From Cymbidium sinense (taxonomy: Eukaryota > Streptophyta > Magnoliopsida > Asparagales > Orchidaceae): a stretch of DNA of 64,000 bases. Location of the stretch: assembly GCA_021442155.1 (NCBI GenBank), contig CM038222.1, positions 20,098,923 to 20,162,922 on the forward strand, given 5' to 3'. Positions within the stretch are counted from its first letter, which is position 1. Every line of letters starts with the position of its first letter. The translations under genes were made by a program, and so were the position numbers. Of the stretch, positions 2,025 through 64,000 are shown one piece after another. The notes under the pieces are model-generated. The model saw only the letters and a list, made by a program, of their open reading frames with translations, searched no databases and was not told where the DNA came from.

Positions 2025-3918
2025 AAAAACTAAACTTAAGCCTAAAAAAATAAAAAATAAAAACAAAACTAAAATAAAATAAATAAAAATCTAAACTAAA
2101 CTAAAAAATAAAAAAAACCTAAACCTAAAGTAAAAAAAATAAAATAAACCTAAACTAAAAAAAATTAAAACTAAATTAAAATCTAAACCTAATAAATATT
2201 CCTAAAATAAAACATAAAATAAATAAAACCTAGATCAAAACCTAAAATAAACAAACCTAAATTAAAACTAAAACTAAACAAAATAAAATAAACCAAAAAT
2301 AAACCTAATCCTAAACTAAAAATAAAACCTTAACATAAACCTAAAATAAAAACCTAAAACCTAAACCAAAAAAAAAATTAAATAAAAGTTAAACCTAAAA
2401 AAAAAAATAAAACCCAAACCTAAAAAAAATAAAATATAAATAAAACTAAACTAAAATAAATCTAAACCTAAAGAATAAACTAAAATAAGAAAACTAAACT
2501 AAAATAAATAAACCTAAAATAAATAAACTAAACTAAATAAAATAAAAATAAACCAAAAATAAAAAAATAAAATCTAAAATAAACTAAAATAAATATAAAT
2601 AAACTAAATAAACTAAATAAACCTAAACCTAATTTACTTAATTTTTTTTAAAATAAAACAAAATAAAACCCTAAACCTAAATACTAAACCTAAACCCTAA
2701 ACTAACACACTAACCTTAAACCCTAAACCCTAAACCCTAAACCCTAAACCCTAAAACCCTAAACCTTAAACCCTAAACTAGCCCTAAACCCTAGACCCTA
2801 AATAAAAAAACCCTAAACACTAAACAATAACCCTAAACCCAAACCTTAAACCCTAAAAACCAAACCTAAACTTATACCCTAAATTAAATCCTAAAACCTA
2901 AAACCTAAACAAATTAAATAAAACCTAAAAATAAAATAAATAAATAAATTTCTAAACTAAATAAAATAAAAAATAAAATAAAATAAAACCTAAACTAAAC
3001 CTAAAAATAAAAATAAAATAAAATAAACTAATAAAATTTATCTAAAATAAAATAAAAAATACCTAATTAAAATTAAAAAATAAAATAAACAAATAATAAA
3101 TAATTTAAATAAAATAAAACTAAACATAAAATAAAAATAATAAAATAAACCTAAAATAAAATAAAACAAAATAAAATAAAACCTAAATCAAAACAATAAA
3201 CTATAAAATAAAACCTAAAAAATAAATAAAAATAAAGCCTAAACCCTAAACTAAAAAAAACTAACCTAAAATAAAATAAAATAAACAAAATATAATAAAA
3301 CCTAAAAAAAAACTAAACTAAAATAAATAAAACCTAAACCTAAACCTAAAAAAAATAAACTTTAACCTAAACCTATACTAAATAAAATAAAATAAACTAA
3401 AATGAACCTAAATCAAAACTAAACATTAAAAACTAAAATAAACCTAAAATAAAACATAAAATATAATCCTAAAAAAAAAAAAAAACTAAACCAAAAAAAA
3501 ATAAAAACAAAACCTAAACCTAAAAATAAAATAAAATTAAAATTAAACTAAAAAATAAACTTAAACCTAAACTTAAAAAATAAACTAAAATAAAAAACCT
3601 TAACTAACATAGATAAACCTAAAATAAATAAACTAAAATAAAATAAAATAATAAACCTAAATAAAAATAAAAAATAAAATAAACTAAAATAAATAAACTA
3701 AATAAATTAAATAAACTAAACAAACCTAAACCTACTAGTTTACTTTATTTAACCAAAACCAGAACCCTAAACCCTAAAACCCTAAAGCAAAACTATAAAA
3801 TCCTAAACCCTAATCCCTAAAACCTAAACCCCAAAACCTAAACCTAACTAAATAAATTAAAAAAAATAAACCTAAACCCTAAAACTTAATAAACTTAAAC
3901 CTAAACCTAAACCCTAAG
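2025..3918 (+). repeat. Degenerate telomere-like (CCCTAAA-derived) array
   Basis: Mostly variants of the plant telomere heptamer in which the C-run is shortened (CCTAAA, CTAAA) or replaced by TAAAATAAA and ACTAAATAA. Near-canonical CCCTAAA tracts lie at about 2690-2800 and 3760-3840. The + strand is almost free of G. A 12-bp non-telomeric motif precedes each canonical block (2633-2644 and 3739-3750). The last 70 bases lead into GRP fragment A and are shared with the other GRP fragments. Confidence 0.85.
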
Positions 3919-4275
3919 AATAGAACCTTCAGTGAACATCACTAAATTAAATCCATGCATGACTGTTATAAATAGGTGCGGATATAAGGTGGTGAGCACT
4001 AGTGGTTATGGAGGCAGATGAGCGATGGAGGTTAAAAGTAAGTGAGGGAGAGATTGGGATATGATGGTGGATGCCACTGAGACCTGGGGTGGTTATGGGA
4101 ATGAAGAAACTAAAGAAAAATTGATCTAACGCTATGGAATTGTATCTTTATAATAGATGGTTCTTAATGGGGTTTTGATTTGCTCTATGCTCATTTTTAT
4201 TTATGTATGTCTAGAACTTTGTTACTTGGTTGATGAAATTAAAAGAAGATAATAATTTGTTTTCTAAACAAAAAA
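3919..4275 (+). pseudogene. GRP 3' exon and UTR fragment, copy A
   Basis: Heavily decayed copy of the 3' end of a plant RRM glycine-rich RNA-binding protein gene. The usual opening (NGxNLDGKNITVNQAQ in better copies) is scrambled after the first few codons. Recognisable parts are the Gly-rich stretch (gtggttatggaggc, gatggaggtt), the C-terminal part ending in a taa at about 4111-4113, and the 3' UTR (gttacttggttgatgaaat) followed by an A-run of about 9. It sits in telomere-like array on both sides and lacks the RRM core. It is not coding. Intact members of this family bind RNA in the nucleus and cytoplasm, for example in cold or stress responses. Confidence 0.75.
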
Positions 4276-7200
4276 AAATACTAAACCTAAAACCTAAACC
4301 TAAACAAACCTAAACCTATACCATAAGACTAAACCCTAACCCTAAATAAATAAAACTAAACCTAAACCTAAAATAAACCTAAACCTAAATATAAACCTAA
4401 ACTCTAAACTATAAACCTAAACCTTAATTTAAACCTAAACTATAAATCTAATAAACTAAGAAACCCTACATTAAATCTCAACCCTAAACCTAAAATAAAC
4501 CCTAAAAAAAATAAAATAAAAACCTAAAACCTAAACTAAACCTACCTAAACCTAAACCCTAAATAAACTAAACCCTAAACCTAAATAAAAATCCTAAACT
4601 AAACCTAAACCTAAATCCTAAAACCCTAAATAAAACCTAAACCTAAACCCTAACCTAAATCAAAACCTAAACCTAAAATAAAAACTAAACCTAAACTATA
4701 TAAATTAAAAAGAAAATAAATAAATAAACATAAACCTAAAATAAAAAAAATAAAATAAAATTAAACCTAAACCTAAAAAAATAATAAAAATAATAAACTA
4801 ATAAAATAAACTAAAATAAATAAATAAAACCTAAACAATACTAAAAATAAAAAAACCTAATATAAAAAAACCTAAATAAAATAAAACCTAAAATAAAAAT
4901 AAAATAATAAACTAAAATAAAATATAAATAATAAAACCTACACTAAACCCTAAACCCTAAACTAAATCTAAACCCTAAACTAAATACTAAACTAAACCAA
5001 ACTATAAACCTAAACCCTAAACTTAAACCAAAACCTAAAACCTAACTAAACCCTAAACCTAAACTAAAAAAACCCTAAACCTAAACCCTAAACACCAAAA
5101 CTAACCCTAAACCTAAACCCTAAACTAAACTAAACCCTAAACATAATCCTAAATAAACACTAAACCCCAAACCCTAAATCCTAAACCCTCAACCCCAAAC
5201 CCTAATCCACAAACCCTAAACCCTAAATCCTAAACACTAAACCCTTTATGCAAAACCCAAAATCCTTACCCTAAACCCTAAACCCTAAAACCCTAAACCC
5301 TAAAAACCTAAAATCCTCAACCTAAACTAAATAAATCCTAAAGATAAAATAAAAAAAAACCTAAACCTAAATAAAATAAAAAATACAATAAAATAAAATC
5401 ATAATATTAAACCTAAACTAAAACCCAAAAATAATATAAAATATACAATAAAATAAACTAAAATATAATAAATAAAGCTCTAAATTAAATTAAAATAAAA
5501 TAAACCTAAGAATAAAAAACCTAAATAAATAAAATTAAACTTAAAATAAAATAAAATAAACCTAAAATAAAATAAAATAAATACAAACCTTAAACTAAAG
5601 CTAAATTTTAAATCCTAAACCATAAACACTAAACTGAAAAACCCTAAACCTACAAACTAAATTATAAACCTAAACCTAAACTAAACCTTAAACCTAAACC
5701 CTAAAACTATAAACCTTAAATTAAAATAAGAACCCAAAACCTAAACTCTAAATTTAAAAACTAAACTCTAAACTTAAAACCCTAAACCTAAACCTAAAAA
5801 TCCTAAACTATAAATCTAAACTAAACTATAAATAACCTAAAACTAAATAAAAAACCCTAAATCAGAAACTAAACCTAAACTATAAATCTAAATTTAAACC
5901 CTAAAATAAATCTAAATCAAAACCCTAAAAATAAACTTAAAATAAAATAATCCTAAACCTAAACTAAACTAAATTTAAAATACTACCTATAAAAAAACTA
6001 AACCTAAGCTCACCTAAAATAAAATCCTAAAACTATAACCTAAACTCTAAACCTTAAACTTAAACTAACCCTAAACTTAAACTATAATTTAACCAACTAA
6101 ACCTAAACCCTAAACCTAAACCTAAACTCCTAAAATTCAAACCCTAAACCCTAAAACATAAACCTAAATCAAAACCCAAAATAAAACCTAATTTAAATCC
6201 AAAACCCTAAACCCTAAACTAAACCTAAACCCAAAACCAAAACCCTATAAACACTAAACCCTAAAGTCTAAAACCCTAACATTTTAAACCATAAACCCTA
6301 AATAAACCTAAACTAGCCCTAAACACTAAACTCTAAATCTTAAACCCTAAATGCAAAACCATAAACCCTAAACCTAAAATTGTAAACCATATACCATAAA
6401 CCCTAAACCCCTAAACCCTAAAGCCCTAAACTTAAACTAAATATAACTTAAAATAAAATAAAAATAATAAAAATAAAATAAAAGCCTAAACTAAAACCTA
6501 AACCTAAACCTAAAAATAAAATAAAATAAATTAATAAAAATAAATTAAAATAAAATAAATAAAAACCAAAACTAAACTAAAAAAATAAACTTATGAATAA
6601 AAAACTAAAATAAAATAAAAACTAAACTTAAAATAAAAAATAAACCTAAAATAAACCTAAAATAAAATAAAATAAATGTTAAATAAAAACCTAAACCTAA
6701 ATATTAAACCTAAAAATAAAACAAAAAAAATAAAAAATAAATCCTAAACCCTAAACTAAAAAAAAAACCAAAAATAAAAATTAAATAAATAAAATAAAAT
6801 AAACCTAAAGCTAGATTAAAAAACACTAAACTATAATAAATAAGACATAAACCTAAACCTTAACTAAAAAAAAAAAAACCTAAAAAATAAACCTAAAATA
6901 AAAACCTAAAACCTAAACCTAAAAAAATAAAATAAAAACCTAAACCTAAAAATAAAAATAAAAAATAAAACCTAAACCTAAAAAGTAAAATAAATATAAA
7001 ACTAAACTAAAAAGTAAACATATACCTAAACTTAAAAAATAAACTAAATTGAAAAACATACACCTAAACCCTAAACCCTAAACCCTAAACTAAAACCTAA
7101 ACCCTTAAACCTAAACCCTAAACCTAAACCTTAAACCATTAAAACCCTAAACCCTGAACCCTAAAACCCTAAATCCTAAATCCTAAACCCTAAAACCTAA

Positions 7201-10200
7201 ACCCTCAACCCAAAAATAAAAAAAAATAAAAAACCTTAAACCTTAAACCCTAAAAGGCTAAAAACCTAAACTTAAACTAAATAAAACCTAAAATAAATAA
7301 ATAAATCAAACTAACCAAAAATAAAATAAAAAAAGAACATAAAGTAAAAGCTAAACCTAAACCTAAACCTAAACTTAAGAAAAAAATTAAAAAAAACTAA
7401 ACTAAAATAAAATAAAATGACCTAAACTAAACTAAATTATACTTAAATAAAATAAAAACTAAACCTAAAATCAAAATGGAATAAACATAAAATAAAATAA
7501 AATAAAAACTAAATAATAACCTAAACCCAAAAAATAAACCTAAAACTAAATAAAAAATAAAACCTAAACTCTAAACTAAAAAAAACTTAAACTTAAAATA
7601 AAAATAAAATAAACCTAAACAGACAATAAAAAAGCTAAACTAAAATAAATAAACCTAAACCTAAAATAAAATAAAATAAATGTTAAATAAAACCTAAACC
7701 TAAAAAAATAAACCTAAAATAAAAAAAAACATAAAAATAAAAATAATCCTAAACCCTAAACTAAAAAAACCTAAACCAAAAAATAAAATTAAATAAACAA
7801 AATAAAATAAACCTAAAGCTAGACTAAAATAAACTAAAATAAATAAGACCTAAACCTAAACCTAAACTAAAAAAATAAACCTAAAAATAAAACCTAAAAC
7901 CTAAACCTAAAAAAATAAAATAAAACCTAAACCTAAAATAAAAAAATAAAAATAAACCTAAAACCTAAAAGTAAAATAAATATAAACTAAACTAAAAAAG
8001 TAAACATATACTAAACTTAAAAATAAACTAAATTGAAAAACATACACCTAAACCCTAAACCCTAAACCCTAAACTAAAACCTAAACCCAAAACTTAAAAC
8101 CTAAACCCTAAACCCTTAACCTTAAACCATTAAAACCCTAAACCCTAAACCCTAAATCCTAAACCCTAAACAAAACCTAAACCTCAACCCAAAATAAAAT
8201 AAAAAAACCCTAAACCCTAAAAGGCTAAAAACCTAAACTTAAACTAAATAAAACCTAAAATAAATAAATAAATCAAACTAACCAAAAATAAAATAAAAAA
8301 ATAAAATAAAATAAGAACATAAAGTAAAAGCTAAACCTAAACCTAAACCTAAACTTAAGAAAAAAATTTAAAAAAACTAAACTAAAATAAAATAAAATAA
8401 CCTAAACTAAACTAAATTAAACTTAAATAAAATAAAAACTAAAACTGAAATCAAAATGGAATAAACTTAAAATAAAATAAAATAAAAACTAAATAATAAC
8501 CTAAACCCAAAAAATAAACCTAAAAATAAAACCTAAAACTAAATAAAAAAATAAAACCTAAACTCTAAACTAAAAAAACCTTAAACTTAAAATAAAAATA
8601 AAATAAACCTAAACCTACACTAAAATAAGCTAAACTAAAATAAATAAAACCTAAACCTAAACCAAAAATAAACTAAACCAAAACCAAAACCAAAACTAAA
8701 TAAAATAAAATAAAATTAAAAATAAATTGAAACCTAAACTAAAATATAAAACCTAAAAAATCCATAAATTAAAAACCTAAAACCTAAACCTAAAAAAAAC
8801 CTAAACCTAAACGTAAAAATAAAAATAAAACCTAAGCCTAAAAAATAAACTAAAAATAAAACTAAACCTAAACCTAAAGCTAAAAAATCAACTAAAATAA
8901 AAAACCAAAACTAAAATAAATAAACCTAAAATAAATAACCTAAATTAACTAAAAATAAAAATAAACCTAAATAAATAAAGAAAATAAAATAAACTAAAAT
9001 AAATAAAAAATAAACTAAATAATAAATAAATAAATTTTAAAGTAAAATAAAAAAATTTAAAACCCTAAACCTAAACCCTAAACTAACCCCCTAAACCTAA
9101 AAACCCTAAACTAAATAAACCTAAACCTAAAACCTAAACTAAAACCTAATCCTAAACTAAACCTAAACCTAAAACTAAAACCCTAACCTAAACTTAAACC
9201 CTAAACCCTAAACCCTAACTTAAACCAAACTAACCTAACTTAAACCTAAAATGCCCTAAACCCTAAAACTAAAACCCTAAATAGTAAACTATAAACCTAA
9301 ACCCTAAATAATAAAACCATAAAACCCTAAACACTAAACCCTAATCCCTAAACCCTAAAACTAAAACCCAAACTAAAACCTTAAAACACTAAACCTAAAA
9401 CCTAAATGAAACTAAACCTAAACTTAAACCCTAAACCCTAAGCTAACCCTAAATTAACCTTAAACCCTAAACTATGAACCCTAAACCCTAAATCCTAAAC
9501 CAACTAAAACCTGCTAAAACCCTAAACTAAAACTTACAATTAAACTAAACCCTAACCCTAAATCAAAACCCAAGCACCTAACATAAACCCTAAATCGTAA
9601 ACCCTAAACCCTAAACTTAAACCTAAAACTAAAACCCTAAACCCTATGCCCTAAACCCTAAACCATGAAACCTTAAACCCTAAACCCTAAACTAACTGTA
9701 AACCCTAAACCCTACCCTAAACCCTAAACCCTAAACATCAAACTCTAAACCTAAAACCCTAAACCCTAAAGCCAAAAAAATAAACTAAACTTAAACTAAA
9801 AAATAAAATAAATAAATAAAATAAACTAAACTAAAAATAAGTAAATAAATTAAACTAAAAAATAAACGAAAATAAACTAAAAAAAAAATACACCTAAATA
9901 AATTAAACTAAACTAAAATAAAATTAAACTAAATAAACTTAAATAAATAAACTAAATAAATAAACTAAATAAATAAACTAAATAAAAAACCTAAACTAAT
10001 AACCTAAAATCCTAAGCCTAAACTAAAATAACTAAATAAAACCTAAACCTAAATAAAATTTATAAACTAAACTAAATAAACTTAAACCTAAACTAAACCA
10101 AAACCTAAAAAATAAAATAAATTAAAACCTAAACCTAAACCTAAACTCAAAATAAAGAAATAAAAAAATAAACTAAATGAATAAACTAAAACCTAAACCT

Positions 10201-10685
10201 AAATAAAAGTAAAATAAAACTTAAAAAACTAATCTAAAATAAACTAAACTAAAAATAAAAAATAAAAACTTAAAGAAACTTAACCTAAATCTAAACTAAA
10301 AAAAACTAAAATAAAAATAAATAAACCTAAAATAAACTACTTAAACTAAAATAAATAAAAATAAATAAACTAAACCTAAAACCTAAATAAATAAACCTAA
10401 ACTAAATAAACTAAATAAACTAAAATAAAATAAACCTAAACTAAACTAAAAAAAACCTAAAATAAACTAAAATAAATAAACTAAAACTAAACCTAAAATA
10501 AATAATAAATAAAATTAAAAAAGATAAACTAAACTAAACTAAACTAAATTAAATAAACTAAATAAAATAAATTAAAAAATAAACAAAATAAAACCTAAAC
10601 CAAAAGTAAACTAAATAAATAAAATAAACTGAACTAAACTAAGTAAACCAAAACCTAAACCCAAACCAAACCCACTAAACCTAAA
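4276..10685 (+). repeat. Degenerate telomere-like array
   Basis: About 6.4 kb of CCCTAAA derivatives. Canonical-rich stretches (about 4920-5300, 5590-6430, 7060-7260, 8040-8220, 9060-9780) alternate with decayed stretches dominated by TAAAATAAA and CCTAAA. G is rare on this strand. No open frame of any length resembles a protein. It contains a duplication of about 1 kb (listed separately), and its last kilobase resembles the array preceding LINE copy 3. Confidence 0.85.
6660..8640 (+). repeat. Tandem duplication (~1 kb unit) within the array
   Basis: Two adjacent segments share irregular, non-periodic landmarks in the same order: aaatgttaaata, cctaaagctaga (6804 and 7812), gaaaaacatacacctaaa, aaggctaaaaacctaaac (7254 and 8221), gaacataaagtaaaagct and tcaaaatggaataaac. 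Landmark offsets are 967-1008 bases. A third, more diverged version of the unit is visible at about 15600-16700. This shows amplification by unit duplication rather than by heptamer slippage alone. Confidence 0.75.
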
Positions 10686-10876
10686 CCCAGAAAAAACCCT
10701 CCTCCCGCTACCAGCTCTCTCTAGTGATTTTGTTTCCTCTTGGTGGCACCCCACCAGGATCTCTATTTTGGCTTTAGTTCATCCGATTCCAAAGGTTGAT
10801 CTAACACATTACATAATGCTCCATCCTTAATCCTACTTGGTGAGTTTGCTTTCTATGGCTCCACCTCAAATTTTGG

Positions 10877-11660
10877 ATGCTTCAACTAGGCATCCGACAT
10901 TTCAGGTTGGCGCCCCTAACTACAAACTTGATAAATAATTTAAGGATGTGTTCTCGTAAGGCTTCTTCATTTATTGCATCAGTTAATCTCATCTCGAATT
11001 TTGTTCATGATTTGTCGGTCATAAGGTGCTCTGATATGGATGTTGAAATGTTGGTGAAACCATTTGAATTCTCTCTCATCAAAAAATTTGCTTTACATCG
11101 CCAGAATTTGGATAAGATCCACACCTTTTTTTTCATAATCTTAAGCTTATGGGTGTTTTCTCGATTAGCCTTATTGACCCCCCGACATATTATGATTCAA
11201 CTATCTAATGATTTAGATTATTCTCAAGTTTTTGTGCATAGTTATTACTTTATTCTTAATTGTCAAATGCGCTTATTGATGTTGTCTCCCCTTTTTGACA
11301 TTAAGGAGGAATCTCCTATTGTCCCCTGTGGTTATCTCTTCCTAATACATTCATTTTGTTACACATCATGTGCTTTTGTCTTTTTTTGGTCCTTTGCAAC
11401 TCAACCAAGAATCACTGAGCTCGCCTTTCTATATTCTAATTCTAATGGAATTAGACATAACTAAAAAATATCCTAAGGAAGTTTGGATTGGCTTTGAAAA
11501 ATATGGGTATTCGCAAAAGGTTGAATTGGAGAATCTTCCAATTTTTTGTTCTCACAGTAAAATTCAGGGTCATAATAACTCAGATTGCTTTATTCTCCAG
11601 CCTCATTTTAAAAATCAAAATCCTCTCAAGGAAAATGTTCCTAAAAAAAGCTAATCCCCA
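10877..11660 (+). pseudogene. LINE copy 1 ORF1 remnant (DUF4283, zinc knuckle)
   Basis: The nucleic-acid-binding ORF1 of a plant L1 LINE, broken by frameshifts. The DUF4283 region runs through about 11040-11500 (KPFEFSLIKKFALHRQNLDK, LTPRHIMIQLSNDLDYSQVF, CQMRLL, SPLFDIKEESPIV). Next comes ITKKYPKEVWIG in a second frame, and the zinc knuckle FCSHSKIQGHNNSDCF at about 11547-11595. The knuckle normally reads C-x2-C-x4-H-x4-C. Here the second Cys is Ser. In LINEs this protein coats the element RNA. The acidic tail (about 11917-12111) continues in other frames. Not functional as read. Confidence 0.8.
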
Positions 11661-12324
11661 CATATGTTCAAAAATCAGCCTCGGATCCTAAGAATGGTAT
11701 GAAAGCTACTATTGAGGTTAATTGCATGAAGTTTGGGATACCCTATTGAACATGTTTTGGATCCTACGGTTGCTAGGATTCCACTGATTTTCAAAATGGG
11801 AAGGATGAACTACCTCTTACCTCTTCTTTAAAATTGAATATTTCTAATACGAAGAATAATAATTTTTCTATGTTATTGGATGATGATTATGTTTCCTGAT
11901 TCTATTTCTATGCATTTTGATCGACGAAAATGAAAATTCCAATGAAGATTTAAACGATGTCGATCAAGCTGAAAATGTTTCTAATCCAGATTTAATTGTT
12001 TGTGCTTTAAATGGTTCTAAGTTGTCACCATCTCTCATTTCTAATCTTGATATTAATGTTAATCCTACTTTTCAACTTAATTTGTATTTATTAGAGGGTG
12101 AACTTCTCTAAACAATTGGAGAACTCTCTAAATTGGTGACCAATGTTACTAAATCTTACTCGTATGATGATTCTAGGGAAAAAGGAAATTGTTTTCAAAC
12201 TTATGATGCTAAAGAGAAAAAAAGTATTAAAAATTACCCTCCCAAACTATCCAAAAAATCTATATCTGCTACTCGCTCTCACTCATCTCTCAATTAACCT
12301 TTGCTTACCCCTTTTTTTGTTTTC

Positions 12325-12960
12325 ATTATGTTTAATTTTCTTATTTTGAATGTTAGAGGCATTAGTACCCTATCTATTCGTAATCATATTAAAATCTTTA
12401 TCGCATTCCTAATATTTCTTTACTCATTATTTTGAACCTCTCATTCATGCTAATAAATTAGCCATGTTGCTAGAATGATCGGCTTTAATAAATTTTATTC
12501 TAATGTTAGTAATAAGATTTGTGTTTTCAATAATTTCATTGGTTTCTATTATTGATGATTTTCAACAAGATGTTAATTCTCAAATCTTATGGTGACTATT
12601 GTGTTTTAGGCTCCTTTGTTTATGCTTCTTACTATAGATATGGTCATAATCTCCTTTGGGATAATTTGAGGAACATTGTTATCTCTAACAAACCTTGGTT
12701 TGTGGGGAGTGATTTCAACACTAATTTATTTTCTTCTTAATGGAGTGGTGGTTTCTCTCCCAATATTCATTCCATGGAAGATTTTTCCAATATGATCCTT
12801 GGTTATAGTTTGGTTGATATTGGCTTTAAGGCTCTAACTACACTTGGGAAAATTGCTACTCTTCGGTTTATTGATCACTTAAGCATAACCTTGTCTATGC
12901 TCCTCCGGTTTCTAAAAATAATTCTAATATATTAAAAAATAGCTCCTTTTAGATTTAGAA
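12325..12960 (+). pseudogene. LINE copy 1 ORF2 endonuclease remnant
   Basis: Start of ORF2. MFNFLILNVRGI (about 12327) matches the first strand of AP-like LINE endonucleases, and copy 2 has MFNFLIWNVRGI at the same place. Downstream pieces in shifted frames include FVYASYYRYGHNLLWDNLRN and NKPWFVGSDFNTN (the conserved W-x-GGDFN region; here GS replaces GG), then SMEDFSNMIL and YTWENC. Several frameshifts and stops separate these, so it cannot make a nuclease. In live elements this domain nicks the target DNA that primes reverse transcription. Confidence 0.75.
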
Positions 12961-13290
12961 CATGTGGATTCAGATATTGATTTCTTTGATGTTGTAGCTA
13001 AGAATTGGAAAGCCCTTTACATCCCGATAACTTAATTATGGTGATGAATAATACATTTAAACTTAAAAGACTTAAACAAAGTTTAGGTTGGAGACTTACT
13101 GATACTAAAATTTAGGTTGGAGAATAAACAAGCATTATTTTAAAAACCTTTTTACTAATATTGAAGACTTGGAAAATTTGGTTTGAGACCTTGAAGTGTC
13201 AATTATGTCTGACCCTTCAAAGCTTATTGATTTAACTGAAGTGAAAGATAAGCTTGCCAATTTCCAAAACATGGAAGAGACTAACTAAAA

Positions 13291-19280: not shown

Positions 19281-19287
19281 AGAAGTA

Positions 19288-45290: not shown

Positions 45291-45325
<35 letters not shown>

Positions 45326-45700: not shown

Positions 45701-45704
45701 TCTT

Positions 45705-51100: not shown

Positions 51101-51222
51101 AAACTTAGCCCTCAACCCTAAACCCTAAATGCCAAACCTTAAACCTAAAGTAACTAAATGAATTAAAAAATAAACCTAAACCCTAAAACCTAATAGACTT
51201 AAACCTAAACCTAAACCTTAAG
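48181..51222 (+). repeat. Degenerate telomere-like array
   Basis: Canonical-rich at about 49015-49650, 50465-50530 and 50970-51110, decayed elsewhere. Boundary motifs at 50444-50455 (TTTACCTAATTT) and 50953-50964. From about 49550 on, the landmarks match 59000-60594. Confidence 0.85.
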
Positions 51223-51655: not shown

Positions 51656-52113
51656 AGACCAAAAACCCTAAACCTTAAACTATAACCTAAACCTAAAACC
51701 TAAGCCCTAAACCCTAAACCCAAGAAACCTTACACCATAAACCCTAAACCCTATACCCAAAACCTAAACTCCAAACCCTCAACCCTAAACCCTAAACCCT
51801 AAACCCGAAACCCTAAACCAAAAAAAAAATAAAACCCTAAACCTTAAACCTTAAAAAAACCCTAAACCTTAAACCCTATAATCCTATGATCCTAAACCCC
51901 AAATCCTAAACCCTAAACCATAAACTCTTGCCTTACAACCTTAAACCCTAAAAACTCCTAAAATCTAAACCCTAAACAAACCCTAAACACTAAACCCTAA
52001 ACCTTAAATGATAATCCCTAAATCCGAAAACCTAAACCCTAAACCCTATAACCCTAAACCCTAAACACTAAACCTAAACCCTAAACCCTAAACCCTAAAA
52101 CCCTAAACCCTAA
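51656..52113 (+). repeat. Telomere-like array, mostly near-canonical
   Basis: High density of CCCTAAA with single-base variants, running directly to the truncated 5' end of LINE copy 5 (ccctaaaat, then aggttttgtt). Confidence 0.88.
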
Positions 52114-53900
52114 AATAGGTTTTGTTAAAGGTAGATCTATTTCTGATAATATTTTACTTGCCCAAGAATTAATTCACAATCTTGATGCCAAGAATAGAGG
52201 GAGCAACATTCTTTTCAAACTTGATATTACCAAAGCCTTTGATAACATCTCTTGGGATTTCCTTTTCCATATTCTGAATTAATTTAAGTTTCCCAAAAAA
52301 AAATTGCTCATCAATAATTGTATCAATAATGCGTGGTGTTTAATTTTGTTTAATGGGGAAGCTTTGGGCTTCTTTTCCTCTTCTCATGGCTTAAGACAAG
52401 GGTATCCCTTATCTCTAGCTTTATTTATTATTATTATTGAGTACTTATCTAGGAGCATCAACAACTCATTCTTAAATAATCCTAATATGTACTATAAACT
52501 CTTGGTGGTCTCCCTATTTCCCATCTATTTTTTTATGATGATTTCATCATTTTCTACAATGCTTCCATTCCATCAAGCATCTTAAGAATTTTTAAATAAA
52601 TTTGGTATAGAAAGTGGCTTTTGATCAATGATAATAAAAGCTATTTTATCATGCCTCTAACATCTCAAATAATAAAATCAATCAAATCCTTTATATCATA
52701 AATTTTAAACATCAACACTTACCTTAAGTACTTGGATCCGCTCTTTAATGGCCTGAAATGTTCCCATATCTTTGATGAGTTAATTCAAAAAATTTCAAAT
52801 AAAATATCTATTTGAGAATTCCATTTACTATCTTTTGGTGGTAGGCTCACCATCCTTAAAAGCACTCTCAACTCTATGCATCTTTATTTGATTCAAACCA
52901 TTATTCCCACTAATGCTACTCTTATCAGAATTGATCGTTTGCTTAACAAAGTTTTTTATGGCTCTAATAATTCTATCAAAAGAATGCATTGGACCTCTTA
53001 GCATAAATGTTGTGGTTCTTAGTATGAAGGTGCTCTTGGTTGTAAACCTATCCGTGAAGCTATCACTGCTTTCTCTCATAAACTGATGGAACTTTAGAAA
53101 GAATGATAGCCTTTGGGCTAAATTTATAATGAAAAAATATTATCAAGGTAAACACCCTCTTAACTGTGCTTATAAAGTTGGTGACTCTCTGGTTTGGAAA
53201 AGGCTTTGTTCCATTAAATGGGTTGTTGAATCATTAATTTCATGGAGTATCCAGTAGGGATCTTTTTTATTTTGGCAAGAAAATTGGATTGCAATGGTTT
53301 GATTGACACCTAATTATGTACCCACTCAACTACTGCTATCAAAGTTAATTATTTTTAGCTTAATAACAATTGGAATGAAAACAAACTTGAGAACTATATC
53401 GCTACTTCTCTTTTTGACAACTTTAAAAATATTCCCATTGGTTCTAGCAAACCAGATCAAATTCTTTATAAACTTTCTCAAAATGGTGATTTTGTTCTTA
53501 AAGAGGTTTGGAACTTTATTAGAGATAAACAACAATGTTCTAATGTTTTTATTAAACTTTGGAACAATAGCATTCCCATTTCTTATTCAGTTTTAGCTTG
53601 GAGGATTTTGAATAACTATATTTTGTGGACTCTTTGCTTTGGACTAAAGGGTTTTGTTTACCTTCAAAGTGCTATTGTTGCTTTCTTATTGAAAATGTAA
53701 ATCATGTCTTTGTCAATGGTGCTATTACTTTAAAATTATGGTTTTGGTATGATGATTTATTTAATACCAACTATTTTCATGGCTCTCTTTCTTTATAGCA
53801 ACTTCTTGAAGCCTATTTCAAAACACTATGAAAGGTCATATAAAGGTTTTAATATGCTACCCTTATCCGTTCATCTGGATGGATAGAAATGATGCTAAAT
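52114..53900 (+). pseudogene. LINE copy 5 RT and post-RT remnant
   Basis: RT from KGRSISDNILLAQELIHNLD, motif A LFKLDITKAFDNISWDF (about 52210-52260), a stop in the next codons (ILN*), motif B SSHGLRQGYPLSLALF (Asp of GDP is Tyr), motif C FYDDFIIF at 52531-52554. Post-RT: HWTS*HKCCG with TAG at 52999-53001, the SIQ*GSFLFWQENW tract (about 53252-53288), LRTISLLLF frames and KGFCLPSKCYCCFLIENVNH (Cys/His-rich, about 53647-53706). Many frameshifts. Confidence 0.83.
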
Positions 53901-54004
53901 ATCATTGTATTCCTATGAACCATAAAAGGATCCTAAAACTAAAGAAAAATTCATGCTCTTTTTAATGCCAATCTTATTAGTAACATTCATTTTAGAGGTT
54001 ACAA

Positions 54005-54533
54005 ATTTGTGGCTAAAAAATTGGGTATCATTCTGCATGATCTTGACCCTCATAAAGGTGCTAGAATTATCCATTGGATCAAACCTAAAGACAATGTGAT
54101 TAAAGTTAATAATGATGGTTCTGTTACTTTCAATAAATATGTATGGTATCCTAGGGATTCTAAAGGTATCATTTGTACTTTTGCCTACCCTCTCAAAGCT
54201 TTCTATTCTCTTTCTGAGCTTATGGTTGTTATATTTATTTTTGAATAGAGGTTTCCTCAACATCTGGATTGAAGTAGATGCTCTCTTGCTTCTTGATTTC
54301 CTTAATTCCAATAAAAAGGGAAATGCTTAATAGAGGTTACTAACGTTATGCTTTCTCAAGTTTCCTTTAAAATTTCCCACATCCTTCGTGAAGGTAATGC
54401 TTGTGCTGATTATTTAGCTAATTTGGGTGCCAACTTAACTGAGTTCACTTTATTTGACAACCAAACTTTGCCTAAATTATTAAGAGGTTTGGTTAATCTG
54501 GATAATATTGGATTGCCTTATCTCAAATTATAA
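54005..54533 (+). pseudogene. LINE copy 5 RNase H remnant
   Basis: KKLGIILHDLDPHKGARIIH, VNNDGSVTFNKY (first Asp of the family), RDSKGII, FAYPLKAFYSLSELMVV (Glu of AEL is in SEL), FLNIWIEVDALLLLDFLNSN, then MLSQVSFKISHILREGNACA and DYLANLGANLTEF (54348 on). It ends in GLVNLDNIGLPYLKL and a stop at 54531-54533. Close to a complete domain but spread over three frames. Confidence 0.83.
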
Positions 54534-56205
54534 TATCTTTGATTGGTTTGATCCTTTTTTTATGGTCTTTTGTTTTTTTTTAAAACCCTCTTTGGGTTGT
54601 GGTCAACTTCTTATTTTCCTCATTAGGGTTTTGTTTTTCAATTTTTGTTTTGTTCTGTTTGGTTGCTCCTTTTTTTTTTATTAGTGTGGTTTGTGTTGGT
54701 TTTCATTTGGTTGGTAACTGCCTAGCTTTTATCAAAATTTTCTCTTATATTATTTCCTTCTTCCTGTCATGACTTTGGTCTTACAAGAATTCTCTTTGTA
54801 TGAGTTTTGCCTTTCGGCCTCCCTACAAATCTATTATATCCGTGGTGGTGTACTATGTGGCTTGGTTGGCTACCTATTTTTGGAAATTTTTGCTTGGGTT
54901 AGTTGGATGGTTGTTTTGGGTGGTTTAACTCTTTTGTTTTGGTAGTGAGGTGGTTCACTATTATTTGCTCTTTTATTTATTTGGTTGTTAGGATTGCTTC
55001 TAGTTGGATTCTTTTGGTTATGGGATGGACCTCCTCCTGTAATATTTAGGCTTTGGGTTTGGGTATTCCTTTCTTGCGATTGTTTTTATTATTTGGCTTG
55101 TTATCTATCATACTGGGATCTATATCTTTCTATCTTTGGCTAGTTTTTCTACCATTATGGATTGGTTTTTCTTTTGCCTTGATTGGGTTTGGAGACTATT
55201 ATTTTTCTCTTACCATTCTCGGGCTATTTTGGATGCTTCTGGCTTGATGATTATTGTTGGTCTTGATAGTGATGTTTTTGGGTTTGAAGACTTGGATCTT
55301 CTCTTGTTGAGGTGGTTGGCTAGGAGGATTAGTTGGATGGATGTTTGGACTATTTGTTTTGGCTAGCTGGACTGGTTGGAGGAGTGGCTATCTTGGCTAT
55401 TTTTTTCTTCTCCTTTGGCGAATGCTCTAGGAAACTGCTAGTTGTCTTTCGGTGATTGTTTCCTGCTGGTTTCCTCTTGCTTGGTCTCATCTCTCTTGGT
55501 TGTAGTAGATCACCCTCTTCTTGCTGGGATGGCAGCCTTGCTCCCCACCCCTCTTGCTGTTAAGCTAGATTTTTCTATTAGGTGACTGGAGGATCTAAGC
55601 ACTTATGGTTTTCCTTTTTGCTCTTGTCTATCTATTTTTAGTGCTATTACCCATATCATGATGGTTGCTCATCTTGAATTGGTTATTCCCTTTTGGTGGC
55701 CATTCTCATGGTGCTCCTTCTATTTTGCTACTATCCTTGCGAGTTGCTTAACTACATGTCTTTTTAAGCTTGAATGTTGTGGTGGATTGGTGGTTGGCTG
55801 CTATATTTACTATTTTGAGGATTTTACAGGCTTGTTGGAGGACCGTTATTATGTGACACGGGTCGGCAATGATGCCTTGATGTTTCCCACTCTTTCTTCT
55901 TTTGGCTAGTAGTGCTACATGTAATTGTAACCCATCTCCTGAAGTATGGATGCTTATATATAGTGTTGCTCATAAAGATGATTGTATCTGAGCTTGAGCC
56001 TTTTATTTACTTTACTCTTTTATCTGCTCTTACTCTTTATGCTTAATTAATTGTACTCATCCTTTAAAAGTATGCTGCAGATTTATTTTACAGGCTGGAA
56101 GACTCTATCAGGTGGATCCTGCTGGCATCAAATGGACCAGATGAAGTTGGCTGCTGCTTACATAGATTTTATTTTATTATTTATTTGGCTATTTTTCTTC
56201 TACTG
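54534..56205 (+). other. LINE copy 5 long T/G-rich 3' region
   Basis: About 1.7 kb, homologous to 27129-28609 in copy 3 and to 37200-39170 in copy 6. Hydrophobic frames align with copy 3 (LGSISFYLWLVFLP; FGFEDLDLLLLRWLARRISW) but contain stops. The last 300 bases are absent from copy 3 because of the gap. Confidence 0.65.
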
Positions 56206-59200
56206 TAACCCTAAACCCGAAAAACCCTAAACCCTAAACCCTAAAACCTAAAATCCTAAACCCTAAACCTTAAACTAACCCTAAATCCTAAAAATCCTAA
56301 ACCCTAAAGTCTAAACCATAAACCTTAAACCTAAACTCTACTAACCCTAAACCTAAAACCTAAACCTAAACCAAACTAACCTAAACTATAAACTAAACTA
56401 AACCCTAAACCAAAACCTAACTCTAACCCTAAACCCTAAATCTAAACCCTAAACTTAAACCTAAACCCTAAACCCTAAAACCTAAACCTTAAACTAAAAC
56501 CTAAAACCCTAAACTCCTAAACTTAAACCCTAAACCCTAAACTCTAAACCCTAAACCTAAATAAAATAAACCCTAAAATACTAAATCATAAACCTTAAAA
56601 TAAACCCTAAAATAAAATAAACTAAAACCTAAACTAAAAAATAAAAAAACCTAAACTAAATAAAACCTAAAAATTAAATAAATAAATAAACCTAAACCAA
56701 AATAAAATAAAAAATTAAAATAAAATAAAAAATTAAAATAAAATAAAAACCTAAACTAAAACCTAAACCTGAAAATAAAATAAAATAAACCAAAATAAAA
56801 CCTTAACTAAACTAAAATAAAATAAACCTAAATATAAAAATAATAAAATAAAACTAAACTAAAATAAAAAATAAAATAAACCTAAAATAAAATAAAATTA
56901 AACTAAATAAAACCTAAACCTAAAAAATAAACCTAAAAAATAAATAAAAATAAACCTAAAACTAAATAAAACCTAAACCTAAAAAATAAAAATAAACAAA
57001 ATAAAATAAACTAAACCTAAACTAAAATAAACTAAAGTTAAATAAATAAATCATAAATAAACCTAAAATAAAATATACCTAAACTAAACTAAATAAAATA
57101 AAATAAACTAAAATAAACCTAAAAAAACTAAAAAAATAAAACCTAAAATAAACTAAAATAAACCAAAACATAAACCTAAAAAATAAAATAAAACCTAAAC
57201 CTAAATCTAAAAATAAAAAATAAAACTAAAAAAATAAATAAATATAAAACTAAACTAAAAAATAAACCTAAACTTAAACCAACACAGAAAAATAAAGTAA
57301 AATAAAAAACCTAAACTAAAATAAATAAATAAAACTAAATAAAAATAAAAAATAAAATAAACTAAAATAAATAAAAAATAAACTAAATAAATCTAAACCT
57401 AATAAAAAAAAAAAAAACCCTAAACTAAACTAAAACCTAAACCATAAACCCTAAACCTAAACACTAAACTAAAAACCTAAACCTAAACCCTAAACCTAAA
57501 CTTAAACCTAAACCTAAAAAAAATAAAAAAAATAAAATAAAATAAACTAAACCTAAACCTAAACCTAAAAATAAACTAAAATAAAATAAACTAAAATAAA
57601 TAAACTTAAAATAAATAAAATAATAAATAAACCTAAATAAAAATAAAAAATAAAATAAATTAAAAAATAAACTAAATAAATAAAAAAAAAACCTAAACCT
57701 AAAAAAAAAAAACCTAAAACCAAAACCCTAAACCTAAACTAAAATAAACCTAAACCTAAATAAAAAATAAATAAAAAATAAAATAAAAAAATAAAAAAAA
57801 TAAAAAATAAAAAAAAAATAAAAAAAATAAAAAAATAAATAAAAAATAAAAAATAAAAAAAATAATAAAAATAAAAAATAAAATATAAAAAAATAAAAAT
57901 AAAAATTAAAAAAAATAAACTAAATCCTAAAATAAAATAAATAAACCCTAAACTAAACCAAAAAAAAAAAAAAAAAAAACCTAAACTAAACCTAAACTAA
58001 AAATAAACTAAACCTAAACCTAAAAAAAATAAACCTAAACTAAAAAACCTAAAAAAAAATAAAAAAAATTAAACCAAAATAAAATAAAATAAAATAAAAA
58101 CATAAACTAAAACCTAAATATAAACCTAAAAATACAAAAAAAACCTAAACTAAAATAAAATAAATAAAAACCTAAACTAAACTAAAAAATAAAAACACCT
58201 AAATAAAATAAAAAACTAAACCTAAAATAAAAATAAAATAAACTAAAATAAATAAAATAAAAAAATAAACCTAAATAAATAATAAACCTAAAAAAATAAA
58301 CCTAAAATAAAATAAAAATAAAACCTAACCCTAAACTAAAACTAAACCTAAAGTAAAATAAAATAAACATAAACCCAAACTAAAAAAATAAACTAAAAAA
58401 TTAAAATAAATAAAATAAACCTAAACCTAAAACTAAACCTAAACCTAAAAAAAAAAAAAATAAAATAAACTAAATAAATAAAACTAAACTAAAAAAATAA
58501 AATAAAAATCTAAACTAAACTAAAAAATAAAAAAAATAAAACTTAAAAAAATAAAATAAAAAATAAAAAAAAAATAAATAAATATAAACTTAAATATAAA
58601 AAAAAACTAAAATAAAAAATAAAATAAATAAATAAAAATAAATAAAACCTAAACCTAAATTAAAATAAACTAAAATAAATGAAAAATAAAGTAAAAACCT
58701 AAACAAATCAATTTTCTTAATTTAAAAAAAATTAAAACAAAACTTAACCCTAAAACCTAAACCCTAAAACTAACCCTAAACCCTACACCATAAATTCTAA
58801 ACCCTAAACCCTAACCCTAAACCCTAAAAGCCTAAACTTTATACTAACCCTAAACCCTAAAAACCATAAAGCCTAATCCCTATACCCAAAGTAAACCCTA
58901 AACACTAAGCTAAACCTAAACCCTAAAGCCTAATCCGTAAACCCTAAAAACCATAAACCCTATTGCCTAAACACTAAAGCCTAACCCTTAAACCCTAAAC
59001 CCTAACCCTAAACCCTAAAGCCCAAAACCCTAAACCCGAAAACCCTAAACCCTAAACCCTAAACCCTAAACCCTAAAAACCTAAAAGCCTAAACCTAAAC
59101 TAAATAAAACTTGAAAATAAAATATATAGAAAAGCCTAAACCTAAATAAAATTAAAAAATATATAAAATAAAAACCTAAACTAAAACTTAAACCTAAACC

Positions 59201-60594
59201 TAAATATAAAATTAATTAAACTAATAAAAATAAATTAAAATAAAGTAAATAAAACCTTAACTAAAAAAATAAAATAAACCAAAGAATCAAAACCTAAATG
59301 AAATGAAAACTAAACATAAAATAAAATAAACTAAGATAAACCTAAAATAAAAATCTAAATAAAAACCTAAACTAAAAAATAAACCTAATAATAAATAAAA
59401 AATAAAACATAAACCCTTAACTATAAAAAAAACCTAAACCAAAAATAAAAATATAATAAACAAAATAAAATAAACCTGAAGCTAAACAAAAATAAACTAA
59501 ACTAAAAGAAAGAAAACCTAAACCTAAACTAAATAAAATATAAAAAATTAAAAATAGACCTAAACCTAAACAAAAAAAATTAAACCTAAAAATAAACCTA
59601 AAATAAAAAACTAAAACCTAAACCGAAAAAATAAATAAAAACCTAAACCTAAACCTAAAAATAAAAAATAAAACCTATACCTAGAAAATAAAATAAAAAT
59701 AAAAAATAAAATAAACTAAACTAGAAAACCTAAACTAAAATTAATAAACCTAAAATAAATAAACAAAACCAAATAAAAATAAAAAATAAAGAAAAATAAA
59801 AATAAAAGATAAAATAAACTAATATAAATAATAAATAAACCAAATAACTTAATAAACCTGAACCTACCGGTTTACTTAATTAAAAAAAACCAATAAACCC
59901 TAAATCCTAAACCCTAAACCTTAAACCCCAAACTTTAAACCCTAAATTGAAAAAGCATTAAACCTAAACATAAACTAAAATAAACTAAACCTAAACCCTA
60001 AACAAATAAAGTAAAATAAACTAAAAAAAATCTCAACCTAAACTAAAAAATAAAACCTAAAATTAAACTTAAAATAAAACCCTAAAATAGAAACCTAAAA
60101 AAATAAACAAAAACCTAAACCTAAACCTAAAAATAAAAAATAAAATAAAAATAAAACTCAACTAAAAAATAAACCTAAACTAAAATAAAAAACCTAAACT
60201 AAAATAAATAATCCTAAAATAAATGAACAATACTAAATAAAAATAAAAATAATCCTAAATAAAAATATAAAATAAATTAAACTAAAATAATTAAAAAATA
60301 AACTAAATAAATTAAAAAAACCTAAACCTACCGGTTTACTTGATTTAAAAAAGAAACACATAAATAATAAATCCTAAACTGTAAACCCTAAAAAACCCTA
60401 AACCCTAAACCCTAGCCCTAAACCATAAACCCTAAATCCTAAACCCTAAAAGCATTATTCCTAAAACCCTAAACCCTAAACCCTAACCCTAAACCCTAAA
60501 CTCTAAACCCCAAACCCTAAACCTAAACCTAAAGTAACTAATTAAATTAAAAAATAGAACTAAACCCTAAAACCTAATGGACCTAAACACTAAG
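56206..60594 (+). repeat. Degenerate telomere-like array
   Basis: Canonical-rich at about 56206-56560, 58740-59090 and 60380-60540. 57750-57925 is the most extreme decay, almost only A and T (AAAAATAAAA). Boundary motifs at 58712-58723 (TTTTCTTAATTT), 59871-59882 and 60335-60346. From about 59000 it repeats 49550-51222. Confidence 0.85.
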
Positions 60595-61030
60595 AATGGG
60601 CAGAACCTTGACGACAAGAACATCACCGTCAACCAGGCTCAGTCGATATCTGGTGGTGGAGGTGAAGGCGGAGGTTGCTGTAATCACAATGGTTGTTATT
60701 ATGGAGGTGGGAGGAGCGATGGAGGTTACAACCATTGTGGTGGCGGAGGGAGTGATCAGGATATCATGGTGGATCCTGCTACTCGAGAGGCCGGGGTGGT
60801 TCTGATTGGAACTGGAGAAACTGTAAAATGGCTGATCCGATCTGCTGCATATGGAACTCTGACTTTATAGTAGAGACAGTTCTAGTTATCTAGGATTTTT
60901 GATTTTCTCTATATGCGCTCATTTTTTATCTATGTCGTCGCTTGTGCCTTAGAAAACTTGGTGTGTTACTTGTCGATGAAATCAATAAGAAGAAATGTTG
61001 AATATGAATTTGTTCTCTATTAAAAAAAAC
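60595..61030 (+). pseudogene. GRP 3' exon and UTR fragment, copy H (best frame)
   Basis: The only copy with a long stretch in the true GRP frame: 60595 onward reads NGQNLDDKNITVNQAQSISG, then GGGEGGGCC, NHNGCYYGGGRSDGGYNHCG and GGGSDQD. A one-base loss near 60758 shifts the frame, so GGSCYSRGRGGS becomes VDPATREAGVV and the normal WRN-stop is missed (open to 60870). This matches the last RRM strand and Gly-rich C-terminus of plant GRP7-like proteins, which bind RNA. The RRM core, start codon and promoter are absent. UTR to an A-run of 8 at about 61021-61028. Confidence 0.88.
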
Positions 61031-62035
61031 TAAAAACCTTAAACCTTAAACTAAAATCTGAATCCTAAACCTAAAACCAAAACCCTAAACCATAAACCCT
61101 AAAACCCCAAAACCATAAACGATAAACCCTAAACCCTAAAATCCCAAACCTGAAACCCTAAACCCTAAAAACTAAACACTAAACCCTAAACCCTAAACCC
61201 AAAACCCTAAACTAAAGAAACCTAAACATTAAACCCTATAACCTTAAACCCTAAACCCTAACTAAAACCCTAAACCTTCTAAACTTTAACCTAAAACCCT
61301 CCCTAACCCTAAATCTTAAAACCTAAACCTAAACTAACCTAAACACTAACCTTAAACCCTAAACCTAAACCCTAAAGTATAAACCCTAAACCAATAGCTA
61401 AATAATAAACCCTAAACACTAAACCCTAAACCCTAAACCCAAACCCTAAATCATAAACCCTAAAACCTTAAACCCTAAACCATAAACCCTAAACCCTAAA
61501 CTAAATGAAAAAAAAAAAAAAACCTAAAAGTAAATTAAAATAAAAAGTAAAAATAAATGAAAATAAAATAAATAAAAACCTAAACTAAACTAAATAAAAT
61601 AAAATAAATCTAAGAATAAAAATTGACATAAAATAAAAACTAAACGTAAAATAAAAATATAATAAACCTAAAATAAAATAAAATAAAAACTAAATAAAAA
61701 CCTAAACCTAAAAAATAAACCTAAGAATAAAACATAAAAATAAATAAGATAAACCTAAACCTAAACCCTAAACTACAAAAAAAAACCTAAAATATAAATA
61801 AAATAAACCTAATCCTAAAATAAAATAAATTAAAATAAAATAAAATAACCATAACCTAAACCTAAAATATACTAAACCTAAACATAAACTAAATAAAATA
61901 AAATAAATTAAAATAAACCTAAGCTTAAACTAAAAAATAAAACCAAAATAAACCTAAAATAAAAACCTAAAACACAAACTTAAATAAATAAAATAAAAAT
62001 CTAAACCTAAACCTAAAAATAAAAAATAAAACCTA
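61031..62035 (+). repeat. Degenerate telomere-like array
   Basis: Near-canonical CCCTAAA to about 61510, then decayed CCTAAA/TAAAATAAA up to an abrupt junction with GRP copy I. Confidence 0.85.
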
Positions 62036-62255
62036 GGGATTTTGACGAGAACTAGAGAAACTGAATAAAGGCCGATCCGATCTACTGCTTATGGAATAGT
62101 GTCTTTATAATAGAGATAGTTCTAGTTATCTAGAGTTTTTTATTTGCTCTATGCTCATTTTTTATATCTATGTCAACGCCAGGTCTTAGAAAGCTTGGTG
62201 TGATGAAATCAAAAGAAGAAATGTTGATTCTGAATTTGTACTCTATTAAAAGAAA
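62036..62255 (+). pseudogene. GRP 3' fragment, copy I (tail and UTR only)
   Basis: Starts abruptly at gggattttgacgagaactag, equivalent to the last dozen codons of other copies, and keeps only the end (gagaaactgaataaag) and the UTR (ccgatccgatctactgctta, ttagaaagcttggtgtgatg, ttctgaatttgtactctatt, then an A-run). The 5' part was deleted or recombined away. Confidence 0.8.
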
Positions 62256-64000
62256 ACCCAAAAACCCTAAAACTTAAACTAAAACCTAAACTGCCAACAT
62301 AAAACTTAAATCCTAAATCCTAAACCCTAAACCCAAAAAACCCTAACCCTTAAATCCTAAACCCTAAAACCCTAAACCCTAAACCCTAAATCCTAAAACC
62401 TAAGCCCTAAACCCTAAAACTTAAACCCTAAACCATAAACCTTAAACCTTAAACCCTAAACCCATAACCCTAAACCCTAAATCCTAAATAAAAAATTAAA
62501 AATAAAATTAAAATAAAACCTAAACCCTAAAACCTAAAACTAACCCTAAACCCTAAACCCTAAAACTTATAACCTTAAACACTAAACCCTAAACCCTAAA
62601 CCCTAAACCCTAAGCCTTTAACCCTAAAAGCAAAATCATAAACCCTAAAAACCTAAAAGTATAAACCCAAACTAAATAAAACCTAAAAATGAAAATAAAT
62701 AAAAAAACTTAAACTTAAATAAAATAATAAAATAAACTAAAAAATAAAAAAAATAAAATAAAATAAAATAAATAAAAACCTAAACTAAACTAAAAAAATA
62801 AAATAAACATAAAAAATAAAAAACTTAAATAAAATCAAAATTAAACAAAAAATAAAAGTAAAATAAACCTAAAATAAAATAAAATAAAAACTAAATAAAA
62901 ACTAAAATAAAGAAAATAAACCTAAAAGTAAATAAAAAATAAAACCTAAACCTAAAATAAACAAAATAAAATAAACCTAAACCTAAACTATAAGAAACTA
63001 AACTAAAATAAATAAAACATAAACCTAAACCTAAAATAAACTAAACCTAAACCCTAAAATAAATAAAATTAAATTAATTAAAAATAAACCTAAACCAAAA
63101 CTAAAATAATAAAACCTAAAAATAAACCAAAATAGAAACATAAACCTAAACGTAAAAATATAAAATAAAAACATAAACTTAAACCTAAAAATAAAAAATA
63201 AAACCTAAACCTAAAAAATAAAATAAAAATAAAACTAAACTAAAAAAATAAACATAGACTAAAGCTAAACCTAAAAAATAAACAAAAATAGAAAACCTAA
63301 ACAAAAATAAATAATCCTAAAATAAATAAAATAAACTAAATAAAAATAAAAAGAACTAAATAAAAATAAAATAAATAAATAAAAAATAAACTAAATAAAA
63401 AAAAACCTAAACCAACAAATTTACTTAATTTCAAAAAAAACCTAAACTTTAAACCTTAAACCCTAAACACTAAACCCTAAACCTTAAAACTAATCCTAAA
63501 CCCTAAACCCTAAAACTAACCCTAAATCTTGAACCCTAAACCTATAACCCTAAACCTACAACCATAAACCCTAAACCCTAAAAACTCAAATATTCTAAAC
63601 CCTAAATCCTAAACCCTAAACCTTAAACCCTAAACCTAAACTTAACCCCAACCTTAAACCCTAACCCTAAACCCTAAAACCATAAACCCTATACCCTAAA
63701 CTAACCCTACACCATAAAAACCCTAAAGCCTAAAGCCTAAAGCCTAAAGCCTAAACCATAAACTAACCCTAAACCCTAAACCCTAACCCCTAAACTAACC
63801 CTAAACCCTAAGCTAACCCTAAACCTATACTAAACCCTAAAAACCCTAAACCCTAAAGGTTAAACACTAAACCCTAAAATATAAACCCTAAACACTAACA
63901 CTAAACCTTAAACCCTAAAACCATAAACCCTAAAACCTTAAACCTAAACCCTAAAAACCCAAACCTAAAAAAATAAAATAAAATCCTAAACCTAAACCTA
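62256..64000 (+). repeat. Degenerate telomere-like array to window end
   Basis: Near-canonical at about 62260-62660 and 63440-63960, decayed between. Boundary motif TTTACTTAATTT at 63420-63431. Continues past the window edge. Local variant clusters such as CCTAAAG four times in a row at about 63722-63750. Confidence 0.85.

Follow-up and report, generated by a model that had tools for sequence, protein, structure and literature searches.

Telomere-type arrays, LINEs and GRP fragments in the window

The window is a 64,000-nucleotide stretch of the orchid Cymbidium sinense (C9:20098923-20162922 in the 3.53-Gb assembly). Much of it consists of degenerate telomere-type arrays (CCCTAAA plus A-rich variants), and in between lie six segments of long interspersed nuclear elements (LINEs A to F) and nine fragments of a glycine-rich RNA-binding protein (GRP), a name that rests on motif and composition. 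It is interstitial and not a chromosome end, lying 20.1 Mb into the 157.9-Mb contig C9. The initial annotation of this DNA had noticed that the CCCTAAA strand carries the sense sequence of every LINE and GRP segment, and had proposed that retrotransposition was directed at telomeric DNA or, alternatively, that one founder orientation was amplified by duplication. The shared orientation holds and duplication probably explains most of it: comparison with other loci indicates that the window belongs to a dispersed unit, at least 88 kb long, in which two telomeric arms are arranged head-to-head around a spacer, X. The CCCTAAA motif is on the + strand throughout the window, except at ~32.2-37.0 kb, where the + strand reads TTTAGGG. 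The features are as follows.

2030..28609, +: degenerate CCCTAAA arrays among the elements of the first contig
3910..4285, +: GRP fragment G1
10690..13310, +: LINE A, the 5' half of an A/C-type LINE, without the 3' part
14243..14690, +: GRP fragment G2, 5' of LINE B
17618..23745, +: LINE B, near full length, with RVT_1 and zf-RVT; its 3' A-run joins CCCTAAACCC
24787..28609, +: LINE C, A/C-type, with its 5' end, an internal deletion and the 3' end lost at the scaffold gap
28610..28709, no strand: 100-N scaffold gap, where array and LINE strand flip
28710..~32220, -: LINE D, 5' part (a longer copy with the 3' end is at locus L043)
32220..37046, -: degenerate arrays from D to E, TTTAGGG on the + strand
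32360..32850, -: GRP fragment G3, 5' limit approximate
34040..34496, -: GRP fragment G4
35399..35898, -: GRP fragment G5, whose frame gives NITVNQAQSR and a glycine-rich stretch
~37047..39800, -: LINE E, 3' part, whose 3' end AAAAAA adjoins a degenerate C-strand array
39801..45700, no strand: spacer X, separating the two arms, at a conserved place in other units, without a Pfam match in the frames tried
45700..64000, +: degenerate CCCTAAA arrays of the right arm
47908..48181, +: GRP fragment G6
51222..51674, +: GRP fragment G7 (GRP7), used as a genome-wide marker
52110..56202, +: LINE F, which begins within the reverse transcriptase (RT) region and is without a 3' terminus; near the A/C type
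60594..61045, +: GRP fragment G8
62079..62263, +: GRP fragment G9, without the 5' part

Strand concordance

Each LINE or GRP segment was scored against the arrays within 600 bp, and was called concordant if its sense strand lay on the CCCTAAA strand. In the window 14/15 segments are concordant and none is discordant. LINE D is unscored by this test because its 5' array tract is shorter than 200 bp and the gap truncates its 3' side. The L043 copy of D, which retains both ends, does agree: a C-strand array comes next on its sense strand. The orientation had also been claimed to persist inside the reversed 28.7-39.8 kb block, and it does, with TTTAGGG arrays on the + strand and E and G3-G5, along with the unscored D, on the - strand. 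Outside the window, all 43 segments over 20 loci are concordant, some of them scored from one side alone, which brings the pooled count to 57/58 with none discordant. The outside loci are a non-random sample, namely the 20 best after the window's own copy from 40 scored LINE B matches of 3449 first-look candidates. A per-copy chance calculation would be an unfair test because the copies are not independent.

Shared flanks and neighbours of the copies

Among the LINE B copies read, a C-strand array lies on the 3' side in 20/20 and on the 5' side in 18/20. The exceptions are L021 and L026, the latter being rearranged at 1294-4065, where antisense GRP and LINE pieces are joined 5' of a 5'-truncated B. 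Fifteen 3' flanks of 800 nt were compared (14 loci plus the window, six loci being too short there), and the 105 pairs are 83.1-93.0% identical with a mean of 87.7%, while 300 control pairs against 20 other window arrays average 78.0% and reach 82.3% at most. Array oddities such as AATCGTAAACCTTAAAGCATAAAAAATAAACTAAAC recur in many LINE B copies. Neighbours are shared as well: of the loci with enough 5' sequence, 5/6 have a GRP2-type fragment 5' of B (exception L029), and of those with enough 3' sequence, 14/14 have an A/C LINE that begins 0.8-1.1 kb downstream of B in the same orientation.

The other elements behave similarly. The 5' array flank of window A is common to C and to copies downstream of LINE B at other loci; by eye, and with no computed control, the flanks of A, C and ten outside A/C copies align (poorest L039), and that of D does not. 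The same array/GRP boundary starts eight of the nine window GRP copies and 5/5 outside copies, the exception being G9, which lacks its 5' part, and the upstream array letters are common to 9 of these 13 copies by eye.

These comparisons indicate that LINE B copies on different chromosomes occupy one point of one array, and that the copies that could be read are not independent. Since the B, A/C and GRP copies share their array points, the many concordant copies go back to one founder each. Separate retrotransposition of each copy was rejected for the copies read, whose insertion points and neighbours are common, and with it the proposal that these copies were individually directed at telomeric DNA. 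The alternative of one amplified founder orientation is borne out by the shared array flanks and by the fixed marker order and strand described below.

A dispersed composite unit

A map of the unit was built from the 40 best matches each for B, GRP7, D and X (41 entries for X, one place being split) and 41 for Y, the sequence that follows the C14 array on its 3' side (L041 8200-9700). The first-look candidates, which are not confirmed copies, number 1453 for X, 3449 for B, 6762 for D and 10412 for GRP7. The markers run Y - A/C LINE - B - D - spacer X - GRP7; those on the D/B side are on one strand and those on the GRP7 side on the other, and at C14 a full A/C LINE sits between B and Y. A GRP fragment, LINE B, LINE A/C and four further markers retain their order and strand.

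Chance would give ~0.09 marker pairs within 100 kb per comparison. Within that distance, X and D lie on opposite strands in 8/8 pairs (9.6-16.2 kb apart) and X and B in 9/10 (32-65 kb). X and GRP7 share a strand in 6/6 pairs at +6.8 to +7.8 kb, and a seventh pair, at -97.8 kb and on opposite strands, involves a neighbouring unit's GRP7. B and Y share a strand in 12/12 pairs at +11.2 to +14.6 kb (low coordinates for both strands, offsets good to ~1 kb). Within 150 kb, B and D share a strand in 4/5 pairs, B and GRP7 are opposite in 7/8, and D and GRP7 are opposite in 5/6; the B-D and B-GRP7 exceptions are the window across its N gap, and the D-GRP7 exception is a neighbouring unit's GRP7. One stretch, C1:231984817-232072798, holds GRP7, X, D, B and Y across 88 kb, so the unit is at least 88 kb long.

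In the window, within a single contig, the D/E arm reads TTTAGGG and the arm from GRP6 to F reads CCCTAAA, with X between them and the LINE 5' ends pointing to X. A simple tandem megasatellite, hinted at by the order A - GRP - B - A at L039, was not seen over 27 kb at C14. No spacer X was found in plasmid records, and no description of such a unit was found in the literature searched by title or abstract start.

Two side observations concern the spacer and Y. Direct repeats of ~245-250 bp, 78-82% identical, occupy 41072-42048 within X. The initial ~500 bp of Y also occur outside the unit, at 76-80% identity, and a second dispersed repeat may begin there (14265 first-look candidates).

The strand flip at 28.6/28.7 kb

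The array strand flips twice in the window. The flip around 39.8-45.7 kb lies within a single contig and recurs in other units, and the flip at 28.6/28.7 kb coincides with the 100-N gap at 28610-28709. The latter is either a misjoin or the border of neighbouring units. That it is a scaffolding error and not a real inversion we put at about even: the flip sits on the gap, and the window alone has B on the strand of X and opposite D. Against an error, the other flip is continuous and repeated elsewhere, and a GRP7-type copy lies on the opposite strand 74.8 kb 5' of window B, as in other units. This copy favours the neighbouring-unit reading, in which the first contig may be a correctly placed neighbour.

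Degenerate letters of the arrays

Nanopore telomere miscalls are described in PMC9414165. Such miscalls were rejected as the general origin of the degenerate arrays: CCCTGG-type words are scarce, and the degenerate letters are common to loci by position. Of 22 loci counted, only L040 (6) and L021 (4, both strands) have more than 3 such words. In both, the 5' flank of LINE B carries GC-rich CCCTGGG-type array variants that resemble the miscall of PMC9414165. A short GRP-like sequence, GATATATGATGGTGGATCATGC, borders the arrays on the left (~1990-2030) and could be a tenth remnant on the + strand.

Identity of the LINEs and GRP fragments

The LINEs resemble elements of the plant L1 type. RVT_1 (E=5.7e-20) and zf-RVT were matched in B and RVT_3, an RNase H-like domain, in C; the endonuclease match, to Exo_endo_phos, is weak (E=0.032, under the curated cut-off). 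Against the PDB, the five best chains for the RT had E values of ~1e-12 to 1e-13, four of them named LINE-1 ORF2 and one RNA-directed DNA polymerase, with R2 weaker, and the nearest named relatives of the RT are Dendrobium proteins. A search of NCBIfam gave nothing beyond a weak RT match, and a Pfam search of eight frames (spacer X, the DNA 3' of the C14 array and the GT-rich LINE 3' regions) gave zero matches. The A/C-type LINEs have long G+T-rich, A-poor 3' regions at 27150-28440, 37650-38900 and 54650-55750.

B, A/C, D and E each end in a 3' A-run. In B, A/C and D the A-run is followed by the C-strand repeat, and in E, AAAAAA is followed by a slightly degenerate repeat. B and the A-type LINEs share ~60-66% identity. 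The L043 copy of D is 92.5% identical to window D and ~78% to A/C over ORF2, and matches to D across the genome range from 95% down to 86% (best 40 of 6762 first-look candidates). E is 67% identical to A/C and 74% to D. Identity to the full A/C LINE is 82% for F and 81% for window A, and both may belong to the A/C insertion.

The GRP fragments look like the end of an RRM (NITVNQAQSR in G5) with a glycine-rich tail, a 3' untranslated region and an A-run behind it. Peptides of the form (N)ITVNEAQSR are attributed to glycine-rich RNA-binding proteins in the available parts of PMC9760910 and PMC3575302. A 58-aa GRP piece had zero matches against the PDB and a protein collection.

Founders and the origin of the strand rule

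Clustering by shared flanks, which the initial annotation had suggested as a way to count events, does collapse the copies, to an estimated five founders. These would be LINEs B, A/C, D and E plus one putative GRP retrocopy, with a minimum of three (B, one A-type and the GRP). Between D and A/C the 3' array flanks have 79.4% identity, at control level for D (maximum 79.7%), but the measure is rough, the A/C 3' flank having reached 84.0% against one of 14 control arrays. All founders lie on the C-strand, which has a chance of 1/32 for 5/5 and 1/8 for 3/3.

A possible reason for this strand comes from the arrays themselves. Over 28,968 window array positions, L1-like sites fall on the G-strand and the C-strand in ratios of 1523:11 (TTTTA), 3810:58 (TTTA) and 139:11 (TTTTAA). 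Because a T-run followed by A is nearly confined to the G-strand, untargeted L1 priming predicts sense on the C-strand. Human L1 endonuclease cleaves TTAGGG repeats in vitro, according to the accessible part of PMC10887698. Priming from a nick in the G-strand agrees with the founder anatomy, in which the A-run abuts CCCTAAA and the C-strand carries the sense sequence. The earlier suggestion of priming from the G-strand is thus compatible with the founders, but an ordinary L1 endonuclease yields the same bias, so telomere tropism is not established.

We consider it probable that two layers account for the pattern: an amplified unit would explain most of the concordance, and a few founders would have been oriented by G-strand priming. 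In the first layer, the composite unit of at least 88 kb was copied over the chromosomes, so that concordance would mostly reflect one amplified founder arrangement. In the second, founders B, A/C, D, E, perhaps F, and the GRP retrocopy would have inserted into telomeric DNA by target-primed reverse transcription. The nick would fall near the 3' side of a G-strand T-run (GGGTTT^A), and poly(A) RNA would pair with TTT, placing sense on the C-strand and the A-tail against CCCTAAA. A plain L1-type endonuclease preference would suffice for this.

Several points weigh against this account. The control margin for the LINE B 3' flanks is slim (83.1 vs 82.3%), and the 5' flanks (19 copies, 171 pairs) are 67.3-89.0% identical, overlapping controls that reach 79.6%. 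D is 78% identical to A/C over ORF2 while the A/C group itself goes down to 81%, a gap small enough that D might in principle have arisen from A/C by an old duplication. The founder count is an estimate, and the C-strand rule rests on about five events. The support for L1 cleavage of TTAGGG repeats does not cover, in the accessible part of PMC10887698, which telomeric strand is cut. B varies in spacing (32-65 kb from X, 23-49 kb from D), and it is order and strand that are conserved, not exact spacing. The unit map covers Y, A/C, B, D, X and GRP7, with E, F and most GRPs outside it, and its 88 kb is a lower bound from the marker span.

One competitor is a pure founder effect, in which C-strand insertions arose by chance and were then amplified without any strand rule. 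It shares the amplification with the two-layer account, and with about five founders it needs a coincidence of 1/32, or of 1/8 if D and E do not count separately from A/C. We think it unlikely, given that 5/5 founders lie in the direction predicted beforehand, that the G-/C-strand site asymmetry is strong, and that in B, A/C and D the A-run runs into the array.

A telomere-specific, TRAS-like LINE that inserted repeatedly, each copy being its own directed event, is harder still to credit. The strand and the A-tail junction match TRAS as far as PMC7265360 was available, and 20/20 LINE B copies read sit in telomeric arrays. However, flanks and neighbours are common to the copies, the RT is L1-like with L1 ORF2p as its best PDB relatives, and ordinary L1 site preference already gives the strand.

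It is very improbable that the arrays belong to the LINE, as telomere-like tails spread through retrotransposition, even with arrays flanking LINE B in nearly every copy read, and an array as LINE tail was rejected: the shared unit, with GRPs, other LINEs, X and Y in fixed order, far exceeds one LINE, and D and A/C differ in their array flanks.

Beyond the two layers, one may speculate that the head-to-head arms, by their geometry, go back to an old telomere-telomere fusion and that the DNA around it was amplified later. If the arms were chromosome ends, X would mark the meeting of two termini, as read from orientation alone. A fuller history is possible, though we doubt it: plant L1 lineages and L1-mobilised mRNA would have settled at former chromosome ends by G-strand priming, as a MoTeR-like subtelomere, two such ends would have joined head-to-head, and the DNA around the junction (at least 88 kb, with X in the middle) would then have been amplified and dispersed, seeding interstitial telomeric DNA.

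Comparison with known systems

The telomere-specific LINEs TRAS and SART belong to the R1 clade. The elements here differ from TRAS1 and SART1 in having an L1 ORF2p-like RT with RVT_3, in spreading by duplication and not by repeated insertion, and in lying in interstitial, degenerate arrays. Their strand relative to the telomeric repeat is fixed as in TRAS (57/58 segments), and the many independent insertions at different array places that mark TRAS and SART were not found in the copies read. The likeness to TRAS1 of Bombyx mori, so far as the available part of PMC7265360 describes it, lies in C-strand sense, a nick expected at G-strand T^A and array on both sides. The initial annotation had cited telomere-associated LINEs as inserting with fixed orientation; this agrees for TRAS, but TRAS and SART insert in opposite directions (PMC7265360, same part), so that there is no single orientation and the SART1 strand is opposite to that of the copies here.

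MoTeR elements of Magnaporthe oryzae resemble the window in their head-to-tail LINEs with telomere tracts between and the 5' end toward the terminus side, according to what was accessible of PMC7367193. This order and strand are found within each arm of the window; a chromosome-end location is not, the window being interstitial (20 Mb into C9). Its tracts are long and degenerate, and were amplified within a large dispersed unit. Plant L1-type LINEs share the RVT_1, zf-RVT and RVT_3 matches, the Dendrobium proteins as nearest named relatives and the 3' A-run, and differ in that the LINE B copies read are all at one array site with shared neighbours. Interstitial telomeric repeats of plants are reviewed in PMC8621592, whose accessible part lists Dendrobium among the genera. 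They likewise place telomeric motif arrays within chromosomes, and those described here differ in being bound to one conserved unit with LINEs, GRP fragments and a spacer.

Implications

The near-100% strand rule at this locus is mostly pseudo-replication, as the arrays read derive from a single composite unit. A question that can now be tested is whether the usual site preference of the L1 endonuclease is by itself enough to orient LINEs in telomeric repeats. The dispersed unit with its conserved head-to-head telomeric arms is a more unusual object than the strand pattern, and the dispersal of such a large, fusion-like unit, as opposed to many separate repair or fusion events, may be a source of widespread interstitial telomeric repeats in a plant.

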